A DNA stretch of 64,000 nt from Aliidiomarina sp. Lineage in GTDB: Bacteria > Pseudomonadota > Gammaproteobacteria > Enterobacterales > Alteromonadaceae. The stretch is from NCBI RefSeq assembly GCF_022565475.1, contig NZ_JAIUMR010000003.1, forward strand, positions 124,001 through 188,000. Reading direction: 5' to 3'. A program made the position numbers and the translations under genes. Shown one piece after another: positions 6,315-24,862 of the stretch. Under the pieces are notes generated by a model that saw nothing but the letters and a program-made list of their open reading frames with translations, was not told the DNA's origin and made no database searches. Within the stretch, counting starts at the first letter, position 1, and the number at the start of each line of letters is the position of its first letter.

Positions 6315-7505
6315 TTAACCCAACAGAGACAATACTGACTGTGGTACCTGATTCGCCTGGGCAAGTACAGAAGTACCAGCCTGTTGCAGAATCTGTGCAC
6401 GCGTCATGTTAGCAACTTCTACTGCGTAATCCGCATCTTCGATACGTGAACGCGCAGCTGATAAGTTAGTTGCATTGGTTTGCAAGTTAGTAATTGCAGA
6501 CTCAAAACGGTTTTGGATAGCACCTAAATCTGAGCGTAACACATCAACTTGTGATATTGCTGCATCCATCAGTGCAAGTGGGTTAGTGGTAGCCGCCGGT
6601 GTTACATCACTTGCTTCATAATCGTTTATGTTAAAGTTGAAAAATAACTCGGTTGCACCTGCCACGCTAGTATCAAAATTCGCCGGCACATAAACTTTAA
6701 AATTACCGCCACCCTCATCAACAAAGCCTTTCGATTCAAGTGTGGCAATGTCTTCACCTGTAACGGTAATGTTATCTTCAATGAAGAAGTTTCCATCTAA
6801 ATCCGCAACAACATTGATAGAGTTTACTGATACGGTGTTGGTTAACCCGAGTAATCCCTGCCAATCAGAACCACTTGGAGTATTGTTAACTGTGGCGTCA
6901 GTTAGGCTGGTGTTTCCAAATTTAGCACTTAAAGCATCGGCAATTGGCATGCCTTGTCCATTGCTATCGAATTGAGGGCCAATCATTGATAGTTTACTCA
7001 CACCTAAAGTGGCGGAGTTAATACGCTGCAAATCTACACTAATAACTTCACCATCATTGGCGCCAACTTGCATGTTAAGCGTGCGATTTTCAGATAGTAC
7101 TTTTACACCATTGAAATCAGTTTCCAACGAAATACGATCAATTTCACTGGTACGCTGATTTATCTCCGCTTGAATAGAGGCTAAATCAGCACTGGAATTG
7201 GTTCCGTTTAAAGATTGAACAGTTAACTCGCGAATGCGCTGAAGGTTGTCATTAACTTGATTTAACGCCCCTTCGGCCGTTTGCGTCAAAGAGATGCCAT
7301 CGTTGGCATTTCTTTGGGCTTGCATTAACCCTGTAATTTGCGAAGTCATGCGGTTCGCAATTGCCTGCCCAGCGGCATCGTCTTTTGCGCTATTAATGCG
7401 TAATCCAGACGACAGCCTTTCCATAGACGTGGCTAGCGAAGATTGCGATTTTTGCAAGTTTTGCTGGCCAATCATCGATGTGATGTTCGTGTTGATCACC
7501 GACAT
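6315..7505 (-). CDS. fliC: Flagellin (copy 1)
   Basis: N-terminal D0/D1 MSVINTNITSMIGQQNLQKSQSSLATSMERLSSGLRINSAKDDAAGQAIANRM and C-terminal ARSRIEDADYAVEVANMTRAQILQQAGTSVLAQANQVPQSVLSLLG. Confidence 0.97.
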   Translation of the reverse strand: MSVINTNITSMIGQQNLQKSQSSLATSMERLSSGLRINSAKDDAAGQAIANRMTSQITGLMQAQRNANDGISLTQTAEGALNQVNDNLQRIRELTVQSLNGTNSSADLASIQAEINQRTSEIDRISLETDFNGVKVLSENRTLNMQVGANDGEVISVDLQRINSATLGVSKLSMIGPQFDSNGQGMPIADALSAKFGNTSLTDATVNNTPSGSDWQGLLGLTNTVSVNSINVVADLDGNFFIEDNITVTGEDIATLESKGFVDEGGGNFKVYVPANFDTSVAGATELFFNFNINDYEASDVTPAATTNPLALMDAAISQVDVLRSDLGAIQNRFESAITNLQTNATNLSAARSRIEDADYAVEVANMTRAQILQQAGTSVLAQANQVPQSVLSLLG

Positions 7506-7572
7506 AGTGTTGCCCTCAGTTAAGGTTAGCTAAGCGCAACTACTAAAATACATGCAACATAGCCATAAATAT

Positions 7573-7599
7573 TTATCGGCGATTTGCGATGAAACTTTA
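7573..7599 (-). promoter_or_regulatory. Sigma28 (FliA) promoter of flagellin 1
   Basis: TTATCGGC-N11-AAACTTTA: exact reverse complement of TAAAGTTT-N11-GCCGATAA. Confidence 0.93.
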
Positions 7600-7661
7600 G
7601 TGGAATATTATGAAAAGTAATCAATCTGAAGCCGATATTTTAAAGCCTGACCCAAAATAAC

Positions 7662-7683
7662 AAAGGCGCCAATTGGCGCCTTT
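7662..7683. terminator. Terminator hairpin downstream of flagellin 2
   Basis: AAAGGCGCCAATTGGCGCCTTT, identical to 6271-6292. Confidence 0.8.
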
Positions 7684-7705
7684 GCTGTGTGTAGCTATTG
7701 GGGAA

Positions 7706-8890
7706 TTAACCCAACAGAGACAATACTGACTGTGGTACCTGATTCGCCTGAGCCAATACAGAAGTACCAGCCTGTTGCAGAATCTGTGCACGCGTCATGT
7801 TAGCAACTTCTACTGCGTAATCCGCATCTTCGATACGTGAACGCGCAGCTGATAAGTTAGTTGCATTAGTTTGCAAGTTAGTAATTGCAGATTCAAAACG
7901 GTTTTGGATAGCACCTAAATCTGAGCGTAACACATCAACATCGCTGAGCGCTTTGTCTAGAGCAGCTAATGGGTTTGCAGTTGCGCCGCCTAGGATATCA
8001 TTGTCATTTAAGTCTGCAGCAGCAACAGTAAATGCAGCAGTACCAGGAGTGGTTGTGGTGTCAGCAGTACTTGGGTCGAGCGCAATAAATACGTTTAAAG
8101 GAGTGCCTGCTTCTGCATCACGGAAACCAAACTCTTGCAATGCTTCAACGTTTGTAGCGTCGACAGTAACAACTGCCTGAGCAAAGAAGTTTCCATCTTC
8201 ATCAACTACTACTGTAGGAGCGGCAACATTACCAGCGCCAGCACCGATTCGAGTAGCTAAATCTGCAGAGATATCAGTAACTGTTGCAGCAGTAACTGCC
8301 GTTGTCTCACCATATACAGATTGGAAATCTGCAGCAACTGGCGCTGCAGCTGTACCAACTGGACCACTTACGTTGAATGAACCTAACCCTAGTGTTTCAG
8401 AGGTGATTTTTTGCAAGTTAATGCTGATAGATTCACCGTCGTTTGCACCCACTTGAATACGAAGATCTTGAGTATTCGCAAGAACTTTAACGCCGTTAAA
8501 GTCAGTTTCTTCAGAGATACGGTCGATTTCGTTCAAACGCTGTGAAATTTCCGCTTGAATTGATTTCAAATCTTCAGAAGAGTTAGTACCGTTCTGTGCT
8601 TGAACTGACAATTCACGGATACGCTGTAAGTTGTCGTTTACTTGGTTCAATGCACCTTCAGCAGTTTGCGCAACAGAAATACCGTCGTTGGCGTTACGCT
8701 GAGCTTGCATTAAGCCAGTGATTTGTGAAGTCATACGGTTAGCGATGGCTTGACCAGCTGCATCGTCTTTAGCACTGTTGATTCGCAGGCCTGAAGACAG
8801 ACGCTCCATAGAAGTTGCTAATGCTGATTGCGACTTCTGAAGGTTTTGCTGACCAATCATCGAAGTGATGTTTGTATTGATAACTGACAT
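7706..8890 (-). CDS. fliC: Flagellin (copy 2)
   Basis: Same conserved N- and C-terminal domains as copy 1; divergent central domain. Confidence 0.97.
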   Translation of the reverse strand: MSVINTNITSMIGQQNLQKSQSALATSMERLSSGLRINSAKDDAAGQAIANRMTSQITGLMQAQRNANDGISVAQTAEGALNQVNDNLQRIRELSVQAQNGTNSSEDLKSIQAEISQRLNEIDRISEETDFNGVKVLANTQDLRIQVGANDGESISINLQKITSETLGLGSFNVSGPVGTAAAPVAADFQSVYGETTAVTAATVTDISADLATRIGAGAGNVAAPTVVVDEDGNFFAQAVVTVDATNVEALQEFGFRDAEAGTPLNVFIALDPSTADTTTTPGTAAFTVAAADLNDNDILGGATANPLAALDKALSDVDVLRSDLGAIQNRFESAITNLQTNATNLSAARSRIEDADYAVEVANMTRAQILQQAGTSVLAQANQVPQSVLSLLG

Positions 8891-15621: not shown

Positions 15622-16191
15622 ATGTCGGAAAAAAAGCTTCTTGAAGAGATGAATCAAGTCAAGTTGGCGATCGAGTTAATTGAACTCGGCGCTCGCTTGC
15701 AAGTACTCGAATCAGAAGTGACACTGAACCGTGGTCGACTCGTTCGCTTGTACAAAGAAGTTCGCGGTGAGTCGCCGCCCAAAGGTTTGTTACCATTCTC
15801 GACCGACTGGTTTATGACGTGGATGCCGAATGTCCATTCGTCGTTGTTTTATTCAATTTACCGCCGCTTACATGAAGATCAAGGCCTTGAACGTATGACT
15901 GCGTTTACCAAGGCGTACCGTCTCTATAACGAACACATTGAAAGTACTGATGGTGAGCAGGTTTTAGGCTTAACCCGTGCATGGACGTTACTCCGTTTTT
16001 TCGAGAGCAACATGTTTCAATTAAGTACCTGTCAGTCCTGTCAGCTTGAGTTTGTTAACCATGCTCATACACCAGACGACGATTATGTTTGCGGTATTTG
16101 CAACCCCCCATCACGCGCAGGAAAGCCAGGTCCGGCGAAGAAAAAATCGCAAACAAAAAGTAAGCTTGCGAAAGAAACAAAAAATCATTAA
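15622..16191 (+). CDS. flhC: Flagellar master regulator FlhC
   Basis: AIELIELGARLQVLESEVTLNRGRLVRLYKEVRGESPPKGLLPFSTDWFMTW...CQSC...CGIC zinc cysteines. Confidence 0.96.
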   Translation: MSEKKLLEEMNQVKLAIELIELGARLQVLESEVTLNRGRLVRLYKEVRGESPPKGLLPFSTDWFMTWMPNVHSSLFYSIYRRLHEDQGLERMTAFTKAYRLYNEHIESTDGEQVLGLTRAWTLLRFFESNMFQLSTCQSCQLEFVNHAHTPDDDYVCGICNPPSRAGKPGPAKKKSQTKSKLAKETKNH

Positions 16192-18226: not shown

Positions 18227-19399
18227 ATGGCTGAACAGAGCAGCAGCGACGACTCCGAAAAAACAGAACCCGCCACGCCCCGAAGGCTGCAAAAAGCCAA
18301 GGAAGAGGGGCAGGTTGCGCGATCGCGAGAGTTAACCACATTTGTGCTTCTGTTTGGCGGTTTGATTGGCCTGTGGGGCATGGGCTCTATGCTTTACGAG
18401 CAGGTTGGTTTTGTCATGGAGCAATCGTTTCTATTTGAACGCCAGCAGGCATTTGAAATTGGCCCGATGTTGATGAACGTGGCCATGCTCGCGCAACATG
18501 CATTATTCGCCTTGATGCCGCTGTTTATGTTGATGGTGGTGCTTGCTTTAGTCGCCCCGGCGCTACTCGGCGGTTGGTTAGTGTCGGCGAAAGGCATGAA
18601 GCCACAGTTATCGAAACTGAACCCAGTCAAAGGCGTGAAACGAATTTTTTCTAGCCAAGCGTTGGCCGAGCTCGGCAAGGCCATTGCCAAGTCATTGCTG
18701 GTTGGCGGTGTTTTGATCATATTTCTTATGTCTCGCCACGGCGAATACATGAATTTAATGAAGCAGCCGGTGCAACAGGCACTGGCGAACGCGTTGCAGT
18801 TGGCGGCGCAAGCTGCGTTATTGATGGTTTTGACGCTGATTGTTGTGGTGCTGATCGATGTGCCTTTTCAGTTATACAGTCATGCCAAGAAGATGAAAAT
18901 GACCAAGGACGAGGTAAAGCGAGAGCACAAGGAAACCGAAGGTGATCCGCATGTGAAAGCGCGAATCCGTTCGCAGCAACAAGCCATGTCGCGCAATCGG
19001 ATGATGAGCAAAGTGCCCGAAGCGAACGTGATTATTACGAACCCGACCCATTATGCGGTGGCTTTGCAGTATGATGAGCAGAATATGAATGCGCCGCGCG
19101 TCGTGGCGAAAGGCACCGAAGCGGTGGCCGCAAGAATTCGTGAGATTGCCGCCGAACATAAAATTCCGCTATTAGAAGCACCTGCATTGGCTCGTGCGTT
19201 ATACTTCAACGTCGATTTGGACCGTGAAATTCCCGGTCCCTTGTATGCAGCTGTAGCGGAAGTCTTAGCTTGGGCGTTCCGTTTGAAACAAGTGAAAGTG
19301 AGCGGTGGCGATGTGCCGCCGAAGCCGAAAGGGCTCGAAGTACCGTCAAAAATGGCCGAGGGTAAGGTTCATCCGCGGCACCAGGAGGAAAGTGAATGA
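18227..19399 (+). CDS. flhB: Flagellar biosynthesis protein FlhB
   Basis: SDDSEKTEPATPRRLQKAKEEGQVARSREL and autocleavage NPTH motif (VIITNPTHYAVALQYD). Confidence 0.97.
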   Translation: MAEQSSSDDSEKTEPATPRRLQKAKEEGQVARSRELTTFVLLFGGLIGLWGMGSMLYEQVGFVMEQSFLFERQQAFEIGPMLMNVAMLAQHALFALMPLFMLMVVLALVAPALLGGWLVSAKGMKPQLSKLNPVKGVKRIFSSQALAELGKAIAKSLLVGGVLIIFLMSRHGEYMNLMKQPVQQALANALQLAAQAALLMVLTLIVVVLIDVPFQLYSHAKKMKMTKDEVKREHKETEGDPHVKARIRSQQQAMSRNRMMSKVPEANVIITNPTHYAVALQYDEQNMNAPRVVAKGTEAVAARIREIAAEHKIPLLEAPALARALYFNVDLDREIPGPLYAAVAEVLAWAFRLKQVKVSGGDVPPKPKGLEVPSKMAEGKVHPRHQEESE

Positions 19400-21480
19400 A
19401 GGGTGTCCAGTACACGCTTGGGCAATTAGGTAAGTCGCTTGACGGCCGGATGCAACTGTTCATCGGCCCGATCCTGATCTTACTGATTTTGGCGATGATG
19501 GTATTGCCACTACCGCCATTTGCGCTCGATATGCTCTTCACCTTCAATATCGCTCTGGCTTTGATGGTGCTCTTGGTCAGCATGTTTGCGGAAAAACCGC
19601 TCGACTTTGCTGCCTTTCCGGCGGTGTTGCTGTTTACCACGCTATTACGCCTGTCACTGAACGTAGCGTCAACGCGTGTCGTTTTGATGCAAGGTCACAC
19701 CGGTGGAGACGCTGCCGGTAAAGTGATTGAGTCTTTCGGTCAGTTCCTTGTTGGCGGTAATTTCGCCGTCGGTATCGTCGTCTTTTTGATTTTGGTGATT
19801 ATCAACTTCATGGTTATCACCAAAGGTGCTGGGCGGATCGCTGAAGTTGGCGCGCGCTTTATGCTTGACGCGATGCCGGGTAAACAAATGGCGATCGACG
19901 CGGACTTGAATGCCGGCTTAATCGGTGAAGAAGAAGCCAAGCGCCGCCGTCAAGAAGTTGCGCAGGAAGCTGATTTTTACGGTTCAATGGACGGTGCGAG
20001 TAAGTTCGTCCGCGGTGATGCGGTTGCGGGCTTAGTGATCATGGTCGTCAATATTATCGGCGGTTTGATGATCGGTACCATGCAGCACAATTTGAGTTTT
20101 GCCGAAGCCGGTCAAGTCTACATTTTGCTTGCGATTGGTGACGGCTTGGTCGCGCAGATCCCAGCGTTAGTTATTTCTACAGCCGCCGGTGTAACCGTTT
20201 CGCGAGTGAATACCGACGAAGACGTTGGCCAGCAGATGGTCAGCCAGTTATTTGTTAATCCGAAAGTTATGATCTTGGCGGCCTGTGTTATTGGTTTGCT
20301 TGGGTTAGTGCCAGGCATGCCGAATTTTGTCTTCTTGCTGTTTACTGCCGGACTTGGTTTTATGGCATGGCGTCTTCTTAAAAAGCAAAAGCTTGCGGCT
20401 GAGGCGGTGCCTGTTGATCAAGCCCCGGTTGCTCAATTTGAGTCGCCGGAAGCAACATGGGCTGATGTTCAACTGGTTGATACCCTGGGTATGGAAGTTG
20501 GTCACCGGTTGATTGCGTTGGTGGATGACCGTCAACAAGGTGAACTGCTTGGACGAATTAAAAGCGTGCGCAAGAAGTTTGCTCAAGATGTCGGCTTTTT
20601 GCCTCCGGTCGTGCATATTCGCGATAACCTCGAGCTGAACCCCAACACCTATGTCATTACCCTGAAAGGTGGTGAAGTGGGACGCGCAGAAATTTATCCA
20701 GAGAAATGGTTAGCGATTAACCCGGGTCAGGTCACCGGTGATGTCCAAGGCATTGCGACGGTCGATCCCGCTTTTGGGCTCGAAGCAACGTGGATTGACG
20801 CGAGCGAGCGCGAGCATGCGCAAATTTACGGCTATACCGTGGTGGACGCGAGTACTGTGGTTGCGACGCACTTAAATCACCTGCTTCAGCGCTTTGCGAG
20901 TGAGCTACTTGGCCGTCAAGAAGTGCAGCAATTGGTTGATAAGCTGGCGGAAGAAAATAAAACCTTGGTTGAAGATGTAGTACCGAAATGTGTGTCTGTA
21001 ACCGTGCTCCAACGTATCCTGCAGAATCTATTGGACGAAGAAGTTTCGATTCGCGATATGCGTACGATTTTTGATACCCTAGCCGAGTTTGAGGGGCAAA
21101 ATATTGACGCCCATGATCTCACTGCGCAAGTGCGTTTGGCGCTCGGTCGGGCAATTACCCAAAAATGGTTCGGCGGCGAGAAAGAACTCCATGTAATCGG
21201 TCTCGATGTACGGCTAGAACAGGTTCTTATGCAAGCAATGAATAGTGGTGGCGCGCTCGAGCCGGGACTGGCGGCAACATTGCAGCAACAGGCGCAACTG
21301 GCATTGCAACGTCAAGAAACGCTCGGCGAACCGCCGGTTCTCGTTTGTCAGCATAGTTTGCGGCCATTATTATCGAATTTCTTGCGTCGGCAATTACGTT
21401 ATTTAGTGGTGATGTCACAAGCGGAAATCCCTGATGACCGGACAATGAAAATCACCGCAATGATTGGAGAAAGTCAATGA
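19396..21480 (+). CDS. flhA: Flagellar biosynthesis protein FlhA
   Basis: AEKPLDFAAFPAVLLFTTLLRLSLNVASTRVVLMQGHTGGDAAGKVIESFGQFLVGGN. Confidence 0.97.
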   Translation: MKGVQYTLGQLGKSLDGRMQLFIGPILILLILAMMVLPLPPFALDMLFTFNIALALMVLLVSMFAEKPLDFAAFPAVLLFTTLLRLSLNVASTRVVLMQGHTGGDAAGKVIESFGQFLVGGNFAVGIVVFLILVIINFMVITKGAGRIAEVGARFMLDAMPGKQMAIDADLNAGLIGEEEAKRRRQEVAQEADFYGSMDGASKFVRGDAVAGLVIMVVNIIGGLMIGTMQHNLSFAEAGQVYILLAIGDGLVAQIPALVISTAAGVTVSRVNTDEDVGQQMVSQLFVNPKVMILAACVIGLLGLVPGMPNFVFLLFTAGLGFMAWRLLKKQKLAAEAVPVDQAPVAQFESPEATWADVQLVDTLGMEVGHRLIALVDDRQQGELLGRIKSVRKKFAQDVGFLPPVVHIRDNLELNPNTYVITLKGGEVGRAEIYPEKWLAINPGQVTGDVQGIATVDPAFGLEATWIDASEREHAQIYGYTVVDASTVVATHLNHLLQRFASELLGRQEVQQLVDKLAEENKTLVEDVVPKCVSVTVLQRILQNLLDEEVSIRDMRTIFDTLAEFEGQNIDAHDLTAQVRLALGRAITQKWFGGEKELHVIGLDVRLEQVLMQAMNSGGALEPGLAATLQQQAQLALQRQETLGEPPVLVCQHSLRPLLSNFLRRQLRYLVVMSQAEIPDDRTMKITAMIGESQ

Positions 21481-23621: not shown

Positions 23622-23636
23622 CATAGAGGTAGATCA

Positions 23637-24149
23637 GTGACCACAGCAGTCAGTGGCGATCAAGCTGCCGGCCTCCGCCAATGGGCGGGGCAGCATAAAA
23701 AGGATAAACCTGAAGCGCAGGCCGTTACGCGTGCGTCACGTGGCACCATTGTGGTCGTTGGCTTGCCGTCTGCGTTGTTGAATGACACAAGTTGTGTACG
23801 CGCTGAACTTGAGCGTTATGCGCAAGCGGGTAAGCAATGGGTCGGTAACAGCGATGATTGGGATATTATAGCCGCTGAATCGTCGCCGCTTGGGCTTGCC
23901 GAGCTTGCTACGCAATATCAGCGTTGGGTATTGTGGGTAGAGCCTGATTTGAATGGTTTCCAACGCGCTTATTATGGTTTGAAAACCTTGCAGCGAGCAG
24001 GCGCGCCGAAGCAAGTGCTGCTGATGCATCCGCCATTGTCGTCGACGCGAGGTCTGATCGCGAACGTGGAAGCAGTGGCGGCACGATTCTTCGGAATTCG
24101 TTTGTTGCGAATTCAATTACCCGTGAGTATGTCTAAGCAGGAGTCCTGA
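23637..24149 (+). CDS. Degenerate FlhG/FleN-like protein lacking ATPase motifs
   Basis: N-terminal SGDQAAGLRQWA matches the FlhG DQAxxLR activator helix; position between flhF and fliA; no Walker A. Confidence 0.7.
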   Translation: MTTAVSGDQAAGLRQWAGQHKKDKPEAQAVTRASRGTIVVVGLPSALLNDTSCVRAELERYAQAGKQWVGNSDDWDIIAAESSPLGLAELATQYQRWVLWVEPDLNGFQRAYYGLKTLQRAGAPKQVLLMHPPLSSTRGLIANVEAVAARFFGIRLLRIQLPVSMSKQES

Positions 24150-24157
24150 TCACGACC

Positions 24158-24862
24158 ATGTACACCGCACAAGGCAAATTAAATCGTGAGTCGGTAGTAC
24201 AACAGTACTACCCGACGGTTCGGCGACACGCACTGGCTTTGCAGGTGAGGCTGCCGGCTGGGGTCGATATCGACGATTTGATTCAAGCGGGATTGGAAGG
24301 TTTACTCGACGCACTCGGGCGTTTCGATCCGCAAGCTGGCGTTGCTTTCTCGACGTTCGCGCATCAGCGTATTCGTGGGGCCATGATTGACGAATTGCGT
24401 TCGCGAGATTGGCTTCCACGCAGTGTCCGGCGGACCGCGCGGGAAATTGAAGCAGCAGTGCAAAAGCTGCAACAGCAACTCGGCCGTGCTCCCGAAGAGC
24501 GCGAAATCGCTGCGCAGTTAAATATGGAATTAGAGGAATACCGAAAGGTTCTGCTCGATACGAATAATGGTTTAGTGCTGTCTTATGACGATGTGGTGAC
24601 CGATCACGAAGAAGCCCAGTTGGGTGAAAGCGACGAGCAATGGTCGCCGGCAGAAGCCTTGTTTAGCAGTGAGCGAAAGGAACTGATTGCGCGTGCGATT
24701 GCTGCACTCCCAGAAAAAGAAAAGCTGGTGATGGCGCTGTATTATCAAGAAGAGCTTAACTTAAAAGAGATTGGTGCGGTTCTCGATGTCAGTGAGTCAC
24801 GGGTATCGCAATTGCATTCGCAAGCGATCAAGCGGATTCGGGCGAGCGTCCTCGCAGACTAA
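24158..24862 (+). CDS. fliA: RNA polymerase sigma factor FliA (sigma28)
   Basis: DIDDLIQAGLEGLLDALGRFDPQAGVAFSTFAHQRIRGAMIDELRSRDWLPRSVRR and region 4 LKEIGAVLDVSESRVSQLHSQAIKRIR. Confidence 0.97.
   Translation: MYTAQGKLNRESVVQQYYPTVRRHALALQVRLPAGVDIDDLIQAGLEGLLDALGRFDPQAGVAFSTFAHQRIRGAMIDELRSRDWLPRSVRRTAREIEAAVQKLQQQLGRAPEEREIAAQLNMELEEYRKVLLDTNNGLVLSYDDVVTDHEEAQLGESDEQWSPAEALFSSERKELIARAIAALPEKEKLVMALYYQEELNLKEIGAVLDVSESRVSQLHSQAIKRIRASVLAD

Follow-up and report, generated by a model that had tools for sequence, protein, structure and literature searches.

A shortened FlhG-like protein that keeps the FlhF-activating helix and lacks the ATP site in FlhDC-type flagellar systems

What does the gene between flhF and fliA encode in a flagellar cluster of Aliidiomarina sp.? 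FlhG helps to determine where flagella form and how many there are; in existing descriptions it is an ATPase, and its cycling contributes to the control of flagellar number. Control of FlrA/FleQ is another of its known tasks. In the window, by which we mean the whole 64,000-nucleotide stretch analysed (contig NZ_JAIUMR010000003.1), the first-pass annotation had noted a 170-aa open reading frame in this position with a DQAxxLR start, and had proposed that it is an FlhG-like protein that has lost its ATPase. The frame is present and its motif reads DQAAGLR; at 170 aa against about 290 aa, it is as short relative to a full FlhG as had been claimed. The features of the region are collected in Table 1.

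Table 1. Features of the short gene and its flagellar surroundings, with positions counted from the first base of the window.
Feature	Position	Strand	Remarks
flhC, master regulator gene	15622..16191	+	PF05280, E 2e-78
flhA	19396..21480	+	named from sequence and position; gene order as in Burkholderia glumae
flhF, 714 aa	21477..23621	+	intact SRP-type GTPase (GPTGVGKTTTTAKLAA, DTIGMSQRD) and ~335-aa C-terminal extension
Probable ribosome-binding site AGAGG	23625..23629	+	7 bases 5' of GTG, read from sequence
Short FlhG-derived protein (predicted), 170 aa, without ATP site	23637..24149	+	GTG start
DQAAGLR activator (enhancer) helix motif	23658..23678	+	residues 8-14; invariant Gln is residue 9
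Variable linker	23688..23741	+	residues 18-35; entropy 3.1 bits, low pLDDT, relaxed dN/dS
First strand and P-loop-position remnant (TIVVVGLPSALLNDTS)	23742..23789	+	without Walker A lysine
Conserved core	23742..24116	+	residues 36-160; strands and helices alternating
fliA (sigma-28)	24158..24862	+	NF005413, E 7.6e-90

The short gene is tightly packed, with flhF ending 15 bp upstream and fliA starting 8 bp downstream. Burkholderia glumae has the same order, flhB-flhA-flhF-X-fliA, and its X carries the annotation FlhG. The FlhDC-type setting that had been claimed is confirmed by flhC together with an flhD-like frame immediately 5' of it. FliM of this genome, read for an EIDAL-like motif, has DIDELL. 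Elsewhere in the window (6315-8890, minus strand) lies a tandem pair of flagellin genes whose ends are almost identical and whose middle parts diverge.

The N-terminus of the 170-aa protein reads VTTAVSGDQAAGLRQWAGQ, and the P-loop position of FlhG is occupied by GTIVVVGLPSALLNDTS. The Walker A motif GxxxxGK[ST], KGGxGKT in the deviant form of FlhG, occurs in 0/67 family members, and the 170-aa protein has no DADLG-type motif that would supply the DxD hydrolysis aspartate; both losses had been read correctly from the window. In the AlphaFold model (pLDDT 82.5), a helix at residues 11-18 is followed by a strand (36-41) and a second helix (52-63), and the chain stops about 12 residues past its last strand, with no confident helix there in place of the C-terminal membrane-targeting helix. 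Relative to FlhG, about 100 residues of the ATPase domain are gone. As Walker A, DxD and the membrane-targeting end are absent, no ATP-dependent dimer or membrane cycle is expected. It is highly improbable that the protein nevertheless binds nucleotide in a non-canonical way and cycles: a strand, loop and helix do remain at the P-loop position, where GLP is commonly conserved, but the loop varies in both length and composition and the lysine, the DxD and the membrane-targeting end are all missing.

A scan of one genome per species, using two search patterns, found 66 related loci in Idiomarinaceae, Halomonadaceae, Alcanivorax and relatives, Mangrovimicrobium and Pseudomonas, so the survey of the gene between flhF and fliA that the first-pass annotation had suggested reveals a widespread family. 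No homologue of the short protein was found in the plasmid collection searched. Across the 67 aligned sequences, D8, Q9, A10, L13 and R14 are invariant, as are W68, W75, W100, G139 and L140 in the core. Mean entropy is 1.7 bits in the core, 3.1 bits in the linker and 0.03 bits in DQAxxLR, the last value being partly ascertained because the helix motif was one of the two search patterns. About 10 loci lie outside that pattern, and hence came in through the other one, and all keep DQAxxLR (among them L059 with DQAASLRAW, L062 with DQAAGLRRW, L066, and L099 with DQASGLRHW). A further locus, L182 (3257-3763 in the long-FlhF genome G330), was found through its FlhF, not through the motif; it keeps DQASGLRQW, while outside the helix it has diverged almost beyond recognition and can barely be aligned. 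The dN of the helix is zero in 10/12 close pairs and that of the core lies well below dS; the remaining core is under purifying selection. Conservation of this kind goes far beyond chance. A shortened relative of a longer gene could be a decaying pseudogene, a reading to which we give almost no weight given this selection, the almost unchanged helix, and a frame that no locus has interrupted and that everywhere follows flhF closely.

To place the protein, we compared it with FlhG by profile and by structure. Against a profile of 34 Burkholderiales FlhG, the family profile scored 46.9 (E 3.4e-6, probability 88%), whereas the best of 59 column shuffles reached 24.9 and the reversed control 15.2; against polar FlhG, it scored 32.1 (shuffled maximum 21.6). 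The profile match spans only ~78 columns, in the C-terminal half of FlhG (EPDLNGFQRAYYGLKTL versus ITDAYAxIKxL), and core residues 83-160 align there around ITDAYAxIK. Of 350,542 PDB chains compared with the model, FlhG 4rz2, FleN 5j1j and FlhG 4rz3 match it best (prob 0.99-1.00), with low TM-scores to FlhG/FleN of 0.37-0.42; low values are to be expected if the domain has lost about half its length and the linker is unconstrained. That part of a MinD-like fold remains is moderately secure on this modelling. Searches of Pfam, NCBIfam, PHROG and PDB sequences found no family that covers the short protein; this and the low global TM-scores would also fit a small protein of other ancestry that acquired an FlhF-binding helix, by evolving or borrowing it, and took the place of FlhG. 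Such an origin is improbable when the FlhG profile match stands well above its controls, FlhG tops the structural matches, the gene sits where flhG sits in B. glumae, and the sister group (below) has FlhG with damaged ATP sites. Judged from profile and predicted structure, the 170-aa protein is a shortened version of FlhG and descends from it.

No full FlhG was found in the window genome (G000) or in seven congeners with the same system, and the best matches in these eight genomes are other, distant MinD/ParA-type proteins. The two polar congeners tested each have a full FlhG (E<1e-175). Intact FlhG was absent from 11/14 other carriers tested, the three exceptions being Pseudomonas genomes, which also hold intact FleN. 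The short protein is thus the only FlhG-type protein found in the window genome, and its gene follows immediately on that of a long FlhF whose GTPase motifs are intact. With neither a match to an unrelated fold nor an intact flhG elsewhere found, the first-pass proposal of an activator helix on a reduced MinD-like scaffold without an ATP site is supported.

Within the genus, the flagellar system varies as a unit. Of 19 genomes (G000-G018), eight encode a long FlhF, in open frames of 715-771 aa, and in these eight the small protein was found between it and fliA; in the remaining 11, FlhF is of the short polar type (443-489 aa) and the small protein was not found. None of the 19 has two FlhF above the family cut-off. 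The genomes thus divide cleanly into those with a long-FlhF, FlhDC-type system and those with a polar one, a division mirrored by FlhG in the ten genomes tested for it, which looks like replacement of the flagellar system. The window genome is an Aliidiomarina-like member of the Idiomarinaceae, and on a FliA tree Aliidiomarina haloalkalitolerans is its nearest named relative. One polar-type congener without FlhDC-type flhF has a weak FlhC-like match (L223, G010:C1:2611269-2611745, E 5e-15).

The short gene lies directly 3' of a long FlhF in 60/60 loci with a readable FlhF. The C-terminal extension of FlhF starts at about residue 380 and is folded with high confidence by AlphaFold, and no Pfam family model covers it. 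It accompanies the short FlhG, in a shorter version in Pseudomonas, and is also present in Cupriavidus. A model of a read-through chain of FlhF and the short protein matches the solved FlhF 8r9r; the helix is undocked in this chain (pLDDT 37-42), which, as the known target is the GTP-bound FlhF dimer, speaks neither for nor against the mechanism proposed below. The helix might only tether the protein to FlhF, leaving the core to do the main job (such as to bind FliM/FliG, the FlhF extension or FlhDC), with GTPase stimulation minor or absent. The undocked helix and a core that is under purifying selection with five invariant positions are in keeping with this, but we consider it unlikely, as conservation is far higher in the helix, its co-catalytic Gln included, than in the core, and L182 has preserved the helix better than any other part.

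Damage to the ATP site extends beyond the short proteins. In polar gammaproteobacterial FlhG, the deviant lysine, Walker A lysine, hydrolysis aspartate and helix are all intact (36/36), whereas among helix-bearing Burkholderiales FlhG, the Walker A lysine is found in 26/87, the hydrolysis aspartate in 8/87 and both in 0/87, with the helix glutamine kept in 87/87; these counts are indicative, since the polar set consists of the best matches to one query plus congeners and the FliA tree is unrooted and quick. The Burkholderiales sample comprises loci L187-L283 and L119-L121, of which the first 30 were chosen by score to a partly degenerate model and 60 further matches were added against bias. 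Seven Burkholderiales matches without the helix, with ATP motifs intact, were set aside as other MinD-like proteins. On the unrooted FliA tree, all systems with the short protein group in a single clade (SH-aLRT 100) that adjoins Burkholderia/Cupriavidus (SH-aLRT 98). The FlhG of these two genera are without the Walker A lysine, a residue whose state requires at least five changes on the tree. From these sequences, it looks like recurrent decay of the ATPase across the order Burkholderiales. The earlier annotation foresaw neither the breadth of the family nor how general decay of the ATP site already is among Burkholderiales FlhG.

Known FlhG stimulates the FlhF GTPase through the co-catalytic glutamine of its helix, and nucleotide-dependent dimerisation moves it back and forth between cytosol and membrane (PMC12826062). 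By analogy, the short protein is probably a pseudo-ATPase FlhG: it would stimulate the GTPase of FlhF but would neither dimerise under ATP nor cycle at the membrane. Its helix would place the glutamine at the GTP site of FlhF and promote hydrolysis as in known FlhG, and with neither an ATP-driven dimer nor membrane cycling, this stimulation would be constitutive in short-FlhG systems. Read most simply, these systems have retained GTPase stimulation and given up the timing that ATP controlled; timing could come instead from expression, from the C-terminal extension of FlhF or from a binding partner of the conserved core, for which C-ring proteins would be likeliest. Under FlhDC, control of FlrA/FleQ by FlhG would be unnecessary.

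PMC12826062 also gives a betaproteobacterial origin as the one thought likely for the enterobacterial FlhDC-type system, and the short FlhG may be the endpoint of a gradual loss begun in betaproteobacterial FlhDC-type systems. On balance, we lean towards a wider scheme in which FlhG in FlhDC-type systems that keep FlhF is a constitutive, ATP-independent activator of the FlhF GTPase. Its ATP cycle would have decayed several times in Burkholderiales, followed by deletion of half the domain (in Halomonadaceae, Aliidiomarina and second Pseudomonas systems), midway to the enterobacterial absence of FlhF and FlhG.

The open-access literature searched holds no account of an ATPase-dead FlhG. FlhG is an ATPase in the papers found, among them a December 2025 review of how FlhF and FlhG evolved, and the parts consulted make no mention of the short form. 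A large natural group that keeps the FlhF-activating helix without the ATP site pulls apart two functions that elsewhere go together, and offers ready-made proteins for asking whether flagellar patterning needs ATP cycling.

Compared with known systems, the short protein shares with FlhG, FleN and YlxH (4rz2, 4rz3, 5j1j) the N-terminal DQAxxLR helix, a gene behind flhF and, on the model, probably part of the fold. It differs from these ~290-aa proteins in its 170-aa length and in lacking their Walker A, DxD and C-terminal membrane-targeting part. Burkholderiales FlhG (Burkholderia, Cupriavidus) have the same operon order, a conserved helix and an ATP site damaged in all 87 sampled, but are still full length at about 270-290 aa. 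The enterobacterial flagella of E. coli and Salmonella are FlhDC-type, as here, but are without flhF and flhG, unlike the window system, and the short FlhG fills the gap between betaproteobacterial FlhF/FlhG and enterobacterial systems that have neither.
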